Below, piece by piece: positions 203-17,478 of a DNA stretch of 34,845 nucleotides. The stretch comes from Bacteroidia bacterium (GTDB lineage: Bacteria > Bacteroidota > Bacteroidia > Bacteroidales > UBA7960): contig REEA01000113.1 in NCBI GenBank assembly GCA_007695305.1, positions 1-34,845 of the forward strand, read 5' to 3'. Each line of letters starts with the position of its first letter. Positions within the stretch are counted from its first letter, which is position 1. A model generated the notes under the pieces. The model did no database searches. It had not been told where the DNA came from and saw nothing but the letters and a program-made list of their open reading frames with translations. Position numbers and translations under genes: made by a program.

Positions 203-3200
203 CTAACTACTCAGGCTTTCCCTTAGCTTATCCAGCTGATAGCCTGCTTTCTCGGACAATTGATTGATCATTAGCAGCAAACGAACCGCACGGGTAATTG
301 CCCCGGGCACCCTGCTTTTGCTTGCAGGGGCCGTTTTTTTTCTGAAGCCGGCAAAATATGCGGCAGAAAAGAGCCAAAGGGCCAGCTGTTCAAACTGTTC
401 TTTGCTGTAATACCAGGTACCTTCGTGCTGATTGACACCAATGTAGCTCTTCACAAGCGGATCATTCAGCATATTCAGGGCCATGGTTTTCTGATCGATA
501 ACAACAGGATCATCCGTATCTTTTGCCGGTTTTCTGCCACGTGGCAATTTCTTATCAAGAAAATCGAATACCGAGGCTCCATATTTGACAAGGATCATTA
601 TCAGCAACTTGTCACGTTCAATATCTGCAGGGCTCCGGCCTGTCTGTTGCATAACTTTTTCAAGCATTGGTTCCGGCATCATACCGGCAATAAGATCGAT
701 ATCATTGTTATGTAAACCTTCACGCACGGACCTTAGCGCAAGGTATGCGAGCATGACAAGTGAATTTTCGCGGTAGGTGTTTGTTCCTGACAATACCACC
801 AGATCCTCTGGAGATGAATAGATGGTGCCAGTGAGCAATGGGTTGAGAAAACGGTGGGAAATGTTCAGGAAGTGCATGGCATCGGGTATTGCCCGGAGGT
901 GTTGTTCAAAAGCCTCGTTGACAGACTCCCCGGCACCCTCAAGACCGAAGGTTGTGCAAACCGATTGACTAAAATCACGAAAACGGTTCATAAGTGCTTT
1001 TTCACTTTCTTCCTGTTGCGCGTTTTGTGCTGCTCTGATCAGGTTTTCTGTAAACAATTGAATGTTCTCATGATCAAACATTCTCAGGAAGGCCTCATGT
1101 ACAGCTGAAAGCCTTTGCATGCCCAAGGCAACTTCAACACTGGCTGTCCCCTGGCCGGCCAAATCCCGGTAAAGCCGTTCCAGGCTTCCGTCGTGATCGC
1201 GCAGCTCCCTGAAGTCAATAAACACCCGATATTCAAACCCCTGCAGGTGACGATAAAACCCGTTCTTATGAATGTCTTCCCCTTTGAGCAGGTATTCCTG
1301 ACCTGAAATATGCTCACGAAGCCTGTAAAAAAAGCCTGCACCGGGGTTCATTTCCAAGGCATCAGCAAGGTGCGTGGTAGTCATCTGTCTGTCGGTCAGG
1401 CGCGGCACCGACCTTTTGATATGGCCTTCGGTGGTATCGTATGTATTGTTGAACAGCACAAGGGCTTTTTCATCTCCGTGCCTGTTGGTAAAGGCAAACA
1501 CGTTTTCATTGATATGGCCTTGCGCATTCAGGAAATCATAAAACTGAAAATGGATTACCTCACTAAACAGGTATCTTTTACCGGCCAGAGGGAAAATTTC
1601 ACGTTCATGTTTTTCAACCAGCCATTGTTGCGGTTCTTCATGGTAATAGGCTCGTTGGTATTCCATCCCATATTTTTCTGTAAATCCTTCTATCTGTCCG
1701 TGTGCAAACATGGGCAGGCCGGGCAGGGTATTCATCAGGACACAGATCCCAAAATACTTGTCGCCAGTGCCAAATTGCCTGATGGCAGTTTCTTCATCAG
1801 GATTGCTCATAAAATTGACGTATCGCTTAAGGATCTCCGGTTCAAACTCAAGGGTATTGGTGATGAGATCGCGGTATTTTTCATTTTCCTCATTTTTCAG
1901 CATGTGCATAAAGGCAGAATTGTATACCCTGTGCATGCCGAGTGTTCTCACGAAATAACCTTCCATGAGCCAAAATGCTTCTGCGAGCAGGAGTGTTTCG
2001 GGGAGTTCACTATTGATTCGGTCAACCACTTCGCGCCAAAACTCAACCGGAAAATATTTATCGAAGGTTTCTTTGGTCATGGCATGTTCGGCGCGTGATG
2101 GGATATCGCCGCCACTGCCGGGCGCAGGATACCAGAGTCTGGAAAAATGTTTTTTTGCCAGTGTCATGGCTGCATCAAACCGGATGATGGAGAATTTGCG
2201 TGCTACTTCAAAAATTTTCTGCATCACGGCTTCTCTCACTTCTCCTTTGAGCATATCCAGCTGGGCTGTATCGTTCCAGGGCATCATGGTGCCATCGTTG
2301 CCATGATAAATGTAACGGACAGTGTTGTTATGCTTGTCAATTCTTTGAAACACCACGGCTGCATCCGTTTTGTCATAGTATCCGTCTTCGATGCGGATGT
2401 CGATACCGGGATGATCGGAAAGGTTCTCTCCTGAAAAAGAATAGTTTGGAAATGGGGACACGGGGCTTTGGATAAAATAGTCGGGATGTTCAATCATCCA
2501 CCTGGAGTAGATGCCGGTATGGTTTGGTACCATATCGCTTGCCAGTCGAATACCTTTTTGTTTTGCACGATGGTTGAGGTTCTGATAGGCCTGTTCGCCT
2601 CCGAGACCGGCAGCAATTTCATAATCATACAGCGCGTATGCTGAAGATATGGCATCCGGGTTTCCGGTCAGGTGTTTGATCTTTTGCGACGCCTTACTCC
2701 GCTCCCATATACCAATCAACCACAAAGCGTTGAAATGCCATTGCGCCATTTTGTCCAACTCTTCGTCGGGAATTTGATCAAGCTGGTTAATGTTTCGCTG
2801 ATATTTTTTTGAGAGCTGGTCGAGCCAAACATAGGCGTTTTTTGCCAACAGTACCACACGCGGCATCCAGTGAGTATCGCGTGTAAAGCGTTCTGTTTCG
2901 TCATAATCCTCTCCTGAGGCCTTTCGTGCATCAAAGCCTGATTTTCCCAAAAACAAAGACCCTTGTGTTTCCTTTTTGCCGTAGCCGGGAACCACTGTAG
3001 GGGCTTGTCCTCCCTTGAATCCTGCCGTTTGCAGATCTTCCCTCATCAGGTCTATTCCTTGCAGAACCTGTTTTACGAGCTCATCCGGAAGATAATGCCG
3101 CCAATGTTTGATCACATATTCCAGTTGGCCAAATAAATCATCGGGTGATTCCCGGAATGGGGTTCTGAATAGCGTAAAAATGTCGGTTTTTTCGCTGGTA

Positions 3201-3831: not shown

Positions 3832-4503
3832 TCAAAACATTAGCAAAATCATCAGGGCGGTCATTGGAACCGTAAGATTGTCCAGGCCTTTACCGCTGAA
3901 GGCTTCCACGATAGCTGCACCAACGGCCACTGCAACGGCAGCCATAATTGTTTTGGTACTATAGTTTCCAACATACCAGTGAAGTGTGTAAATAGATATG
4001 ATAAATGCAGTAACTAAAAACACGGAACTGCCGAGGTAAGTTTTGTTTAGCTGAAGCTTGTAAATGATGATCTTTCTGACTCTTTTCCCAAAAAATTCTC
4101 CGGTGATACCGGCCAGTGAATCACTGACGGCAAGGATCAGGATGGGGATAATAAACAATTTTGTGTCATTGAGCCATACAGAAACAACAAACGATACCGT
4201 AATGGTTACAGGTAGCAAAACACCGCCATACGTTGTTCTGGAAACATCATTGATCGATCTCAACAGGTCTTTTCGCTGGGCAATCAGCAGCACAAAGAAA
4301 AAAATTATTCCCATTGCCAGCACATGATGATAACTATTAAACACCAGCGGAAATGTAAGTGAAAGGAGGGATGCTGTACTGTGTGCAAACTTCCTGGTGT
4401 ATTCTGTATGGATTTTGAGAATGGAATGGAGTATTTCTCCGGTTGCAAGGATGGCCCCAAAGGCAATGATGTAAAGGACGGTGAAGATAAGTTCCTGGCT
4501 CAT
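3832..4503 (-). CDS. Dolichol/phytol kinase-like (cytidylyltransferase-clan) membrane protein
   Basis: This 223-residue polytopic membrane protein has about seven hydrophobic segments. It resembles the SEC59/VTE5 (dolichol kinase, phytol kinase) family, which uses CTP or another nucleotide to phosphorylate a membrane-embedded lipid alcohol. Visible family features are an Arg-Lys-x-x-His element (RKFAH, about 37-41), a DSLAGITGEFFGK motif in the middle, a following Lys-x-x-x-Gly-Ser (NKTYLGSS), and a C-terminal EAFSGKGLDNLTVP motif. Its ATG overlaps the stop of the upstream cdsA-like gene in an ATGA arrangement (4500-4503), which implies translational coupling. The neighbours are a CTP-dependent lipid activator and a CDP-alcohol transferase, so a role in lipid-alcohol phosphorylation or salvage is inferred. 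The substrate is unknown. Confidence 0.75.
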   Translation of the reverse strand: MSQELIFTVLYIIAFGAILATGEILHSILKIHTEYTRKFAHSTASLLSLTFPLVFNSYHHVLAMGIIFFFVLLIAQRKDLLRSINDVSRTTYGGVLLPVTITVSFVVSVWLNDTKLFIIPILILAVSDSLAGITGEFFGKRVRKIIIYKLQLNKTYLGSSVFLVTAFIISIYTLHWYVGNYSTKTIMAAVAVAVGAAIVEAFSGKGLDNLTVPMTALMILLMF

Positions 4504-14282: not shown

Positions 14283-14948
14283 ATGAAAGCACGAAACATC
14301 ATTGCAGGACTTTTCCTGTCCATATTCTTATTCATCGGGTCATCGTTGCTTGCTCAGGACGGGGCCGAGTCATTGTTGTATGAGAGGGATGGTCTTTTTG
14401 ATCCAACTCCCCGTATGTCGATGCAGCTGGGCAGCAGTTTTTCGACCGGTTGGTGGGGTGGAAACATGTTTGTCCATTCTTTGGCACCCCGGATGAACTG
14501 GGACATGAGTCAAAACTTCCATCTTGAAGTGGGTACGATTTTTTCTTCTGCCAGGATGAATACCATGGAGGGTATGTTTCTGTTTGGCCCCCACTTTACC
14601 GATGGCGGGAGCATGCCGGGCAGCCAGCCGGGGACGCTGTTTTCATCAACAGTATATGCAGCGGGTGCCTACCGGGTTAATCCGCGTCTGAGCCTGATCG
14701 GTGCCACATGGCTTGAACGGATCGACCATGATTACCGGGGGGGCACACCACTAAATCCGTATGCGATGCAACAAAACCCGAAAGGCATGATGCTCGGTTT
14801 TGACTACCGTGTTTCTGAGAATTTTCGTTTTGGGGCTGAAGTAAGTTTTTCAACAGGCTATCATCCGTTCTCAAACATGCAAATGCAGCGTCATCCCTTT
14901 GGTGGTCTTTACAACCCCATGCCATTCCATCGCCAAAACAGATGGTAA
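14283..14948 (+). CDS. Met-rich outer-membrane beta-barrel-like protein, function unknown
   Basis: I do not recognise a family for this 221-residue protein. A clear signal peptide is present (MKARNIIAGLFLSIFLFIGS, cleavage probably after SLLAQ). The mature part alternates aromatic and hydrophobic residues in short strands (for example FHLEVGTIFSSARMN, SLIGATWLERID, KGMMLGFDYRV, NFRFGAEVSFSTGYH), as in small outer-membrane barrels, and it ends in Trp. It is rich in Met, with a C-terminal tail containing MQMQRHPFGG and NPMPFHRQNRW. The Met/His tail could bind metal, but that is speculation. The start is fixed by a consensus promoter 19 bases upstream. It is divergent from the patatin-like gene and precedes the mini-ORF unit at 15012-15129. 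Confidence 0.75.
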   Translation: MKARNIIAGLFLSIFLFIGSSLLAQDGAESLLYERDGLFDPTPRMSMQLGSSFSTGWWGGNMFVHSLAPRMNWDMSQNFHLEVGTIFSSARMNTMEGMFLFGPHFTDGGSMPGSQPGTLFSSTVYAAGAYRVNPRLSLIGATWLERIDHDYRGGTPLNPYAMQQNPKGMMLGFDYRVSENFRFGAEVSFSTGYHPFSNMQMQRHPFGGLYNPMPFHRQNRW

Positions 14949-15011
14949 TGTTGAAAAAAAAACACCAAAATATTTGCGAATCATTTAAGAATTTTTTATC
15001 TTTAGGCACTA

Positions 15012-15042
15012 TTTGAAACGAATTTAGCTTTCTATAGTTTTG
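15012..15042 (+). promoter_or_regulatory. Orphan consensus promoter in an intergenic region
   Basis: TTTG (15012-15015), exactly 19 bases, then TAGTTTTG (15035-15042) matches the Bacteroidota promoter completely. A second TAGTTTTG follows at 15045-15052. An alternative upstream promoter is TTTG (14973-14976), 20 bases, then TATCTTTA (14997-15004), with one mismatch. No ordinary gene follows on this strand: transcription would start near 15049, cross the seven-codon ORF at 15064 and stop at the hairpin 15094-15129, giving an RNA of about 80 bases. The region is AT-rich, so chance matches are possible. Confidence 0.5.
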
Positions 15043-15063
15043 GATAGTTTTGTTTATTGGTTA

Positions 15064-15087
15064 ATGTTGTTTTTGTTTTGGTGGTAG
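15064..15087 (+). CDS. Tiny Trp-ending ORF (MLFLFWW), possible leader peptide
   Basis: The codons read ATG TTG TTT TTG TTT TGG TGG TAG: seven residues ending in two tandem Trp codons. It starts about 15 bases after the predicted transcript start of the promoter at 15012-15042, and its stop lies 6 bases before a 13-bp hairpin terminator. The ORF at 34783 (MLLFWLVDW) has the same design and shares ATGTTG, TTGTTTTGG and TGGTAG. Tandem regulatory codons before a terminator are the hallmark of transcription-attenuation leader peptides. However, no plus-strand gene follows until 16465. Translation is not shown by the sequence; this is inference from pattern. Confidence 0.35.
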   Translation: MLFLFWW

Positions 15088-15093
15088 AAAGTT

Positions 15094-15129
15094 GCAAAAG
15101 GTGCCCTTAAACGGGCACCTTTTGCTTTT
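15094..15129. terminator. Strong intrinsic terminator hairpin
   Basis: A perfect 13-bp stem pairs GCAAAAGGTGCCC (15094-15106) with GGGCACCTTTTGC (15113-15125) around a six-base loop, followed by TTTT on the plus strand. It can end the mini-ORF transcript on the plus strand. It also lies 27 bases past the minus-strand stop of the radical SAM gene, so it is probably bidirectional. Confidence 0.85.
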
Positions 15130-15151: not shown

Positions 15152-16216
15152 TTACTGCATCTGGAGGCGAAGGTTTGTGAGTCCTGCACCACGGGCAATA
15201 CTTACCACGTTGTTATATTCCGACCGTGTTATCCGTCGTGCAATCTCAGGATAGTCGAAAGCCTTGAACATGGGTGTATATTGAGACATGATATTGACGT
15301 AAGTGTCATGGGGGAGGTTGTTTGCGATCCATCTCATTACCCTGTCACTTCTTGCCACATTTCCCGGCATCACCAGGTGGCGAATCATCAGTCCCCGGTG
15401 CATAAGCCCCGAGTCGGTGTCGGGGTGGGCAACGCCAACCTGTCTGTTCATTTCAATCATCGCTTTTTGTGCTACTTCCGGGTAACAAACCGCGCCCGGC
15501 GAATATTTATCTGCCGCTTCAGGATCTGCATATTTGAAGTCGGCGAGGTAAATGTCAACGATGCCGTCAAGAAATTCCAAAACTTCAGCTTTTTCCCATC
15601 CACTGGTGTTGTAAACCAGGGGGATTCTCAAGCCTGCAGGGACAGCCCTGTCGAGTGCCATCAGAATGTGGGGTACATAGTGGGAAGGACTTACGATGTT
15701 GATATTGTGGCATCCCCGCCGTTGCAGGAGCAACATCATATCGGCCAGCTGCCTGATGCTGTATACGCGGCCATGGCCCAGCTGGCTGACCTCATAATTG
15801 ATGCAAAACACACAAAGCATGGAGCAATTGGTAAAAAAGATGGTGCCTGATCCGTTTCTTCCTACCAGTTCCCGTTCTTCACCAAAATGTGCACTGGCCG
15901 AAGAGATCTCCAGATCGCTGTTGGCGTTGCAATCGCCTCGCTGACCGCTCAACCTGTCGGTTTCGCAATCGCGGGGACACAAATCACAGCTTCGCATTCG
16001 CTCATACAAAATCTCTGCACGGGCTTTGAGTTCACCCGATTGTTGCATGTCAACATATTTGGGCACCTGTTTGGATTTCTCTTTCAGCATGGCGTGTTTA
16101 TTTGGAGTGAGAGAAGTGTCTGAATAAACAGATTGCAGAAAAAAATTATTGGCTAAGGCCGCGCTACCGACCGCCGCAATGGTACGCAAAAACTTTCTCC
16201 GGTTGTGCTTATACAT
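15152..16216 (-). CDS. Radical SAM protein (PflX/PFL-activase-like) with twin-arginine signal
   Basis: This 354-residue protein carries the radical SAM cluster motif C131-x3-C135-x2-C138 (NCSMLCVFC), which binds a [4Fe-4S] cluster and S-adenosylmethionine. Upstream is a second cysteine set, C77-x2-C80-x3-C84-x11-C96 (CDLCPRDCETDR...GDC), typical of the PflX-like group (COG1313). The real substrate of that group is unknown to me. The N-terminus MYKHNRRKFLRTIAAVGSAA looks like a Tat signal: Arg6-Arg7-Lys-Phe-Leu followed by a hydrophobic stretch. This is odd for radical SAM enzymes, which need cytoplasmic reductant. It may be a genuine Tat substrate folded with its cluster before export, or a membrane-tethered form. 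It is divergent from the DHOD-like gene, and a 15-base palindrome lies 29 bases upstream of its ATG. Confidence 0.85.
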   Translation of the reverse strand: MYKHNRRKFLRTIAAVGSAALANNFFLQSVYSDTSLTPNKHAMLKEKSKQVPKYVDMQQSGELKARAEILYERMRSCDLCPRDCETDRLSGQRGDCNANSDLEISSASAHFGEERELVGRNGSGTIFFTNCSMLCVFCINYEVSQLGHGRVYSIRQLADMMLLLQRRGCHNINIVSPSHYVPHILMALDRAVPAGLRIPLVYNTSGWEKAEVLEFLDGIVDIYLADFKYADPEAADKYSPGAVCYPEVAQKAMIEMNRQVGVAHPDTDSGLMHRGLMIRHLVMPGNVARSDRVMRWIANNLPHDTYVNIMSQYTPMFKAFDYPEIARRITRSEYNNVVSIARGAGLTNLRLQMQ

Positions 16217-16464: not shown

Positions 16465-17478
16465 ATGGCAAATTTATCAACAACTTACATGGGGCTCGAG
16501 CTGAAGAATCCACTGATCGTTGGTGCATGTAATCTGAGCATGGAAACAGATCTGGCCAAAAAAATGGAGGATGCAGGGGCATCCGCAATTGTTTTCAAAT
16601 CATTGTTTGAAGAGCAGATCAATCTGGAAAGCATTCAGATGGAGGAGGAACTGAATGAATATGTTGAACGTCATGCGGAGATGATCAGCCTGTTTCCGGG
16701 CATTAAGCATGCGGGACCGGAAGAGCATCTGGACAAGCTCTCCAGAATAAAAGAAGTACTAGGCATACCTGTGATTGGGAGTTTGAACTGTATCAATGCC
16801 GACACATGGGTGGAGTATGCCATCGAGATGGAAAAAACAGGCGTTGATGCGCTGGAGTTGAATTTCTATGCCAATCCGGGTGATTTTCAGAAGACCTCCG
16901 TGGATATAGAAGAGGAGCAGATTGAAATTCTCAAAAATGTGAAGAAAAAGATCAGCATTCCCATCAGCGTAAAGCTAAGCCCTTTTTACTCCAATACGTT
17001 GCAATTTATTGGCAGGTTAGACAAAGAGGGTGTGGATGCTTTTGTTTTATTTAACCGGTTGTTCCAGCCCGACATCAACCTCACCAAGCAGGATCATGAT
17101 TTCCCGTTTAATTTGAGTCAGCCGGCGGACTATCGCCTTCCTCTGCGTTTTGCAGGACTGCTGTACAAGGAAATTAACGGAAGCATCTGCGGAAACACCG
17201 GGATCTTCTCCGGTGAAGACATGGTAAAGATGTTGCTTGCCGGTGTCGATTGCGTGCAGGTGGTGAGTGCTGTTTACAGGCACAAGATTCCCCATCTTAC
17301 ACAAATGATTGAAGACCTGGCAAGCTGGATGGACAGCAAGGGTTACGGCAAGCTGGATGATTTCCGCGGCAAGCTTTCCAAAGCCAATATAAAGGATCCT
17401 TATGCTTATCAGCGCGCTCAATACGTTGACTTGCTGATGAAGCCCTTTGACCTGCTGAAGAAATATCCACAGGTATAG
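16465..17478 (+). CDS. Dihydroorotate dehydrogenase-like flavoprotein
   Basis: This 337-residue TIM-barrel protein belongs to the class 1 dihydroorotate dehydrogenase-like group. The N-terminal YMGLELKNPLIVGACNLS and the C-terminal phosphate-binding part (about 235-270: ICGNTGIFSGEDMVKMLLAG, then VQVVSAVY) match the FMN-barrel pattern. In true class 1 enzymes the catalytic base is Cys in an NLSCPN motif; here the aligned segment reads NFYANP (133-138), with Ala136 at the Cys position. Classical PyrD activity is therefore doubtful. Genes of this type are often found beside pyruvate:ferredoxin oxidoreductase or in fermentative Bacteroidota, but no nifJ is in this window. A purine-rich AAGGGAG (16451-16457) seven bases before the ATG supports the start. 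The physiological substrate is unknown. Confidence 0.85.
   Translation: MANLSTTYMGLELKNPLIVGACNLSMETDLAKKMEDAGASAIVFKSLFEEQINLESIQMEEELNEYVERHAEMISLFPGIKHAGPEEHLDKLSRIKEVLGIPVIGSLNCINADTWVEYAIEMEKTGVDALELNFYANPGDFQKTSVDIEEEQIEILKNVKKKISIPISVKLSPFYSNTLQFIGRLDKEGVDAFVLFNRLFQPDINLTKQDHDFPFNLSQPADYRLPLRFAGLLYKEINGSICGNTGIFSGEDMVKMLLAGVDCVQVVSAVYRHKIPHLTQMIEDLASWMDSKGYGKLDDFRGKLSKANIKDPYAYQRAQYVDLLMKPFDLLKKYPQV

Follow-up and report, generated by a model that had tools for sequence, protein, structure and literature searches.

The analyzed stretch of DNA, a window of 34,845 nucleotides from a Bacteroidales genome, contains a short unit in which a Trp-rich mini-ORF is followed by a terminator, raising the question of what such a unit may do where nothing lies behind it to be regulated. 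An earlier note had interpreted it as a leader peptide that senses Trp, with the ribosome translating it in control of the terminator, and had mentioned a free-standing small RNA as a side guess. It was right about the elements themselves: the ORF MLFLFWW* at 15064-15087 contains two Trp codons, a perfect 13-bp terminator (15094-15125) begins six bases after its stop, and there is no same-strand gene for 1.3 kb, the next one starting at 16465. Our data support a stand-alone unit reaching from promoter to terminator, and it is the side guess that gained ground. Of the 47 genomes of the family, 38 yielded the unit, which is conserved as nucleotides and not as a peptide. The unit is termed A in the following; its features and those of a second locus, termed B, are compiled in Table 1.

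Table 1. Positions of A, its elements and its neighbours in the window, and of B elsewhere in the same genome
Feature	Position	Strand	Remarks
Small RNA gene A, ~118 nt	15010..15128	+	Kept at one syntenic position in the family; start deduced
Probable promoter of A: TTTG (14973-14976), 21 bases, TATCTTTA (14998-15005)	14973..15005	+	Consensus match
Possible stem closing the core loop of A, 5' arm AGCUUUCUA	15026..15034	+	Complementary to 15085-15093
Conserved antisense core of A, UUAUUGGUUAAUGUUGUUUUUG	15054..15075	+	22-nt perfect complement of B loop
Near-invariant seed of A, UGGUUAAUGUUG	15058-15069	+	Inside the core
Mini-ORF MLFLFWW*, ATGTTGTTTTTGTTTTGGTGGTAG	15064..15087	+	Probably an accident of the core; frame not conserved
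Possible stem of A, 3' arm UAGAAAGUU	15085..15093	+	Complementary to 15026-15034
Intrinsic terminator hairpin of A, 13 bp, 6-nt loop, U-rich tail	15094..15125	+	Terminator scan
Outer-membrane-protein-like gene upstream of A	14283..14948	+	Adjoins most A loci; no Pfam match
Radical SAM gene, convergent with A	15152..16216	-	Pfam PF04055; adjoins most A loci
Partner RNA B	G000:C59 ~4306-4421	-	A complement in hairpin loop; promoter-like sequence ahead, terminator behind

The consensus of promoters recognized by the Bacteroidetes primary sigma factor is TTTG/TAnnTTTG (PMC7366714). The full-consensus promoter reported previously (TTTG at 15012-15015, 19 bases, TAGTTTTG at 15035-15042) does exist as far as its boxes are concerned; the complete pair is confined to this genome, while G020 and G008 retain the second box together with a first box matching in three of four positions. 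Promoter-like matches lie approximately 45-68 nt upstream of the A core in most homologues, where a box some 60 bases ahead of the core recurs, and because most relatives possess such a match at the position corresponding to 14973-15005, the A RNA probably starts near 15010. Among perfect 13-bp hairpins with a loop of 3-12 nt, the terminator is the only one in the window. The convergent radical SAM gene has its stop codon 26 bases away, so that the hairpin, lying past it, could serve both strands. Relatives of A have a hairpin at the same place, the stem sequence of which is unrelated and free to differ between genomes. The possible stem around the core revealed partner changes in some relatives of the homologue alignment (GGCUUUCUA/UAGAAAGUC, CUUUCUGC/GCAGAAAG, UUUUAA/UUAAAA), and it was absent from the RNAalifold predictions. 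We concluded from the sequence that A has its own terminator and its own promoter, the latter assigned by consensus only, in an intergenic locus that is conserved as RNA.

DNA comparison yielded matches to A in 29 of 59 related genomes, all of them members of the window's own family. The covariance model that detected the 38 homologues found one clear copy in each genome, besides three weak second matches in the family. Most of these loci have the same two neighbours, the outer-membrane-protein gene on one side and the convergent radical SAM gene on the other, and the aligned homologues share a common core (TTGGTTAATGTTGTTTTTGTTTTGGTGG) followed by the terminator. Named contigs belong mostly to Bacteroidales MAGs; their labels, CSSed, T1Sed and B1Sed among them, we take to stand for soda-lake sediments. 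Outside the family, no convincing copy was found. The A model gave weak matches (E 1e-5 to 1e-3) in further families of the same order, and these looked like chance; the one bearing the seed, in G199, turned out to be where a transporter gene ends, with a terminator behind it, and the other weak matches had no seed. Two exact pattern matches outside the Bacteroidota-labelled family relatives (in Chitinophagaceae and Clostridiaceae MAGs) reside in a context unlike that of A and were likewise attributed to chance. A search of Rfam with A did not disclose any match at the gathering threshold, nor a credible one at E values up to 5. Judged by the 29 DNA matches and the 38 model matches, the predicted unit at 15010-15128 is far from chance.

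The homologues also made it possible to follow the mini-ORF. In this genome an ATG, two Trp codons, a stop and, six bases on, the terminator are arranged as would be needed if the position of a ribosome on MLFLFWW set the terminator in the manner of trp or tna attenuation, and each of the 38 homologues has the ATG. Conservation of the frame and of the Trp codons in close relatives had been suggested as a check on this idea, and the check went against it: MLFLFWW* is encoded by merely six homologues. In 16, the frame is stop-free through all 20 codons translated; ML* occurs four times and MLFLF* three times, a missing T shifted the frame to MLFCFGG* in another three, and MLFLFWL*, MLFLFW*, MLFSFW*, MLLLFWC*, MLFLL* and MLFL* were each found once. 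Despite these changes the underlying nucleotides (GGUUAAUGUUG) are near-invariant, a pattern that is unlike codons, and the antisense seed UUAAUGUUG accounts for the constant presence of an ATG. Furthermore, an attenuator should have its regulated gene directly downstream, whereas here 1.3 kb contain none on this strand and it is the convergent radical SAM gene that is kept in most loci. The peptide reading was rejected on account of the unconserved frame, and we regard Trp sensing as very improbable.

What the core of A may recognize emerged from a search of its own genome. An exact match of 22 bases was detected on contig C59 (G000:C59:4332-4353), constituting the perfect complement of the core, and this locus, B, was the sole perfect antisense match to AAAAACAACATTAACC elsewhere in the genome. 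Many family genomes contain UGGUUAAUGUUG at A and B only, or at one or two extra sites, which is about the background of the reversed control, and the 12-mer TGGTTAATGTTG is rare beyond A and B across the family. The longest perfect A:B complement averaged 13.9 nt in 33 genomes as opposed to 7.1 nt for shuffled B, and the duplex energy was -28.7 vs -18.2 kcal/mol. Cognate pairs had a small energetic advantage over non-cognate ones (p = 0.005 with 18 genomes and 0.028 with 33, uncorrected for kinship). The motif in B is predicted to be largely unpaired (0.83 vs 0.46 for the whole hairpin), and the predicted openness of the folded A core is moderate (0.47). Mismatches within the seed complement of B were seen in G005, G010, G014, G016, G019 and G030. 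A second A complement in the terminator loop of the own-genome B (ACCACCAAAACA) was dropped as it is not kept in G012 or G013. According to these predictions A has a specific complementary target at another locus, which is what characterizes a trans-encoded antisense small RNA.

A might also regulate several mRNAs as a general small RNA, B being only one of its targets or a sponge for it. Its G/U-rich seed could match A/C-rich leader regions, and A has a conserved GU tract (UUUUGGUGG), lying past the B complement, that is not clearly used for B; moreover, FopS, a group of small RNAs from Bacteroides, has many susC leaders as targets (PMC11697453). However, 18 sites in the own genome differ from the core at two positions or fewer, barely more than the 13 of the reversed control, and we consider a many-target A rather unlikely.

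B was found in 41 of the 47 family genomes, and genomes sampled from other families gave no B; Rfam yielded nothing credible, the sole match being a chance one to CrcZ. The B hairpin, as derived from 39 sequences, consists of an outer stem, an inner stem (AUGGCCGC/GCGGCCAU) and a small accessory hairpin. Pairing was maintained in 91.4% of the cells, nine pairs exhibited two-sided changes, and covariation amounted to 0.190 as compared with 0.118 for shuffled (0/500) and at most 0.080 for slid alignments. B lies in the order TPR gene, B, often a lipoprotein-like gene, and ECF sigma gene; on L117 (188-1629), the ECF sigma gene has an unassigned lipoprotein-like gene next to it, and many genomes have kept this arrangement near B. 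Nearly all B loci are preceded by the ECF-like promoter CAGCGTTT-N13-CGTCTT or a close variant; a B transcript would be expected to start just behind CGTCTTATAA and to end at the terminator. Additional conserved blocks were observed between promoter and hairpin at the B locus of L034 (~1620-1780, minus strand). They comprise GTTCTTT, TTCCCGG..CCGGGTGTTTTTCTCC and, in some genomes, a 5' hairpin whose sequence varies (CTGTGAGAA..TTCTCACAG). One block (AGAATACAAT) is the complement of the later TTGTATTC, and the blocks may form alternative structures.

While A and B co-occur in most of the family, some genomes possess B without A. G011 has a B locus with the motif kept and no A was seen there; G023, G029 and G026 revealed a B with a near-complete motif and no A was found. 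In G015, the sister of G011, A has clearly been lost from the syntenic site between the radical SAM and outer-membrane-protein genes (L148, 2538-2620), and B is kept with its motif. G069 (L120, 850-967) has kept the B hairpin with GGATTAACCAAACCTAACC in place of the A-complement, and no A turned up there.

Unlike the stems of B, the A:B duplex did not show covariation in excess of shuffles (flanks 77.2% vs 78.2% paired, covariation 0.075 vs 0.085); its seed hardly varies and the flanking pairs do not track each other. A tract that is invariant instead of covarying, and whose orientation is indifferent, is what one would find if the sequence shared by the two loci were a double-stranded DNA site bound by a protein and the RNAs did not pair. 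Against such a site stand the few further copies present per genome and the location of the tract, which in A lies between promoter and terminator and in B is predicted to be unpaired, within a hairpin loop of an RNA whose stems covary. Since coding copies of B also carry the tract inside a codon-constrained hairpin, we deem the DNA-site explanation improbable, and RNA pairing remains the preferred one.

These coding copies indicate where B may come from. In G022, G027, G032 and G034, the B slot is occupied by an intact gene of approximately 215-226 codons with the B hairpin inside. One of the two copies of G032 (C259) is distinct; the other (C302) agrees with the contig of G022 and may have been binned wrongly. 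Indeed, G032:C302 (L125) and G022:C132 (L124) seem to be the same DNA in different genera, one of them probably misbinned. The conserved blocks of B correspond to codons of the coding copies (SPFF, G.VFVSG.TVMAA, NINxY and GHxP), and a protein search with the G027 product matched the noncoding B of G015, interrupted by two internal stops. Where the four coding copies have identical amino acids, they all use one codon in 12 of 20 columns of the hairpin and in two of 29 columns elsewhere (Fisher p = 8e-5), and the between-genus pair G027/G034 gave p = 0.003. Synonymous changes are thus depleted exactly at the B hairpin, and the invariance of its codons means that the nucleotides are constrained beyond the protein. 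From the ECF-like promoter, which is present ahead of the coding loci too, to the hairpin the distance is ~370-390 bases in intact coding copies and ~115-315 bases in the others.

A pseudogene was identified in G028, which belongs to the genus of G022 and G034. Its frame is broken and the seed complement is kept; in the stem, a compensatory double change (AUGACCGC/GCGGUCAU) preserved pairing. G023 still contains coding remnants at B, and in other genomes the frame is gone while hairpin and A-complement mostly remain. The decay in G028 and the remnants in G023 make loss of the frame more likely than its gain. A Pfam search with the coding copies gave no match above the cut-off, and protein searches found no clear outgroup gene; a weak relative of the same style was seen in G073, from another family of the order. 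The TPR-gene tree includes a single coding genome, on a long branch, and therefore does not give the number of frame losses. We see about even chances that a hairpin within a gene, kept because a trans-acting antisense RNA reads it, persisted longer than the protein. In this view the frame was lost at least twice in this one Bacteroidales family with promoter, hairpin and complement kept, and what had been an mRNA next to an ECF sigma gene became a regulatory noncoding RNA.

Taken together, we think it probable that A is a stand-alone trans-acting antisense RNA of B, and that B is an mRNA turned into a noncoding RNA in most lineages. A would be made from a primary-sigma promoter and B from the ECF-type promoter near the ECF sigma gene. 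B would originally have been part of a protein-coding mRNA, as it still is in four genomes, with the frame lost in most lineages. In the cell, B would expose the seed complement CAACAUUAACCA unpaired in the loop of its long conserved hairpin, and the G/U-rich core of A would pair in trans with this A/C-rich loop via UGGUUAAUGUUG. The duplex would then be cleaved or would stop B from acting; in the coding relatives the same pairing would act within the coding sequence of the mRNA. The most likely effect is that A and B titrate or destabilize each other, A tuning an ECF-driven transcript.

Trans-acting antisense small RNAs are well known. To our knowledge, clear bacterial cases in which a message became a noncoding RNA and relatives are still coding are rare. 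B may represent a bacterial gene that is losing its protein while keeping an RNA hairpin read by a small RNA. At one syntenic locus, the genomes of this family display B as an intact gene, as a fresh pseudogene and in noncoding forms of long standing, with the candidate partner A still present in most of them; the family would thereby let one ask directly whether the regulation of an mRNA by a small RNA can outlast the protein. In addition, the pair suggests that an ECF sigma locus of uncultured Bacteroidales has a small-RNA arm.

In the trp and tnaC leader peptides, a short ORF with Trp codons precedes a terminator. A resembles them in this genome by such an ORF ahead of its terminator and differs by its unconserved frame and by having no regulated gene behind. 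The antisense RNAs of CopA/CopT, RNA I/RNA II and hok/sok are encoded opposite to their targets, and a structured loop offers a short unpaired recognition sequence. A/B share this feature of the target loop, whereas A is encoded away from its target and has a linear G/U-rich core. GibS and FopS, trans-encoded small RNAs of Bacteroides and thus of the same phylum, are like A intergenic, with a primary-sigma promoter, a single-stranded seed region and an intrinsic terminator. FopS is multicopy, about 65-70 nt long, acts at susC start regions with RbpB and has been deposited in Rfam (PMC11697453); A, in contrast, is single-copy, ~118 nt long and matched by no Rfam model. In Campylobacter, the small RNA CJnc190 and its RNA antagonist CJnc180 are cis-encoded at one locus (PMC8687705). 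A and B are similar in being two complementary RNAs, one of which may antagonize the other; unlike the Campylobacter pair, they are encoded apart from each other, and B probably goes back to an mRNA.
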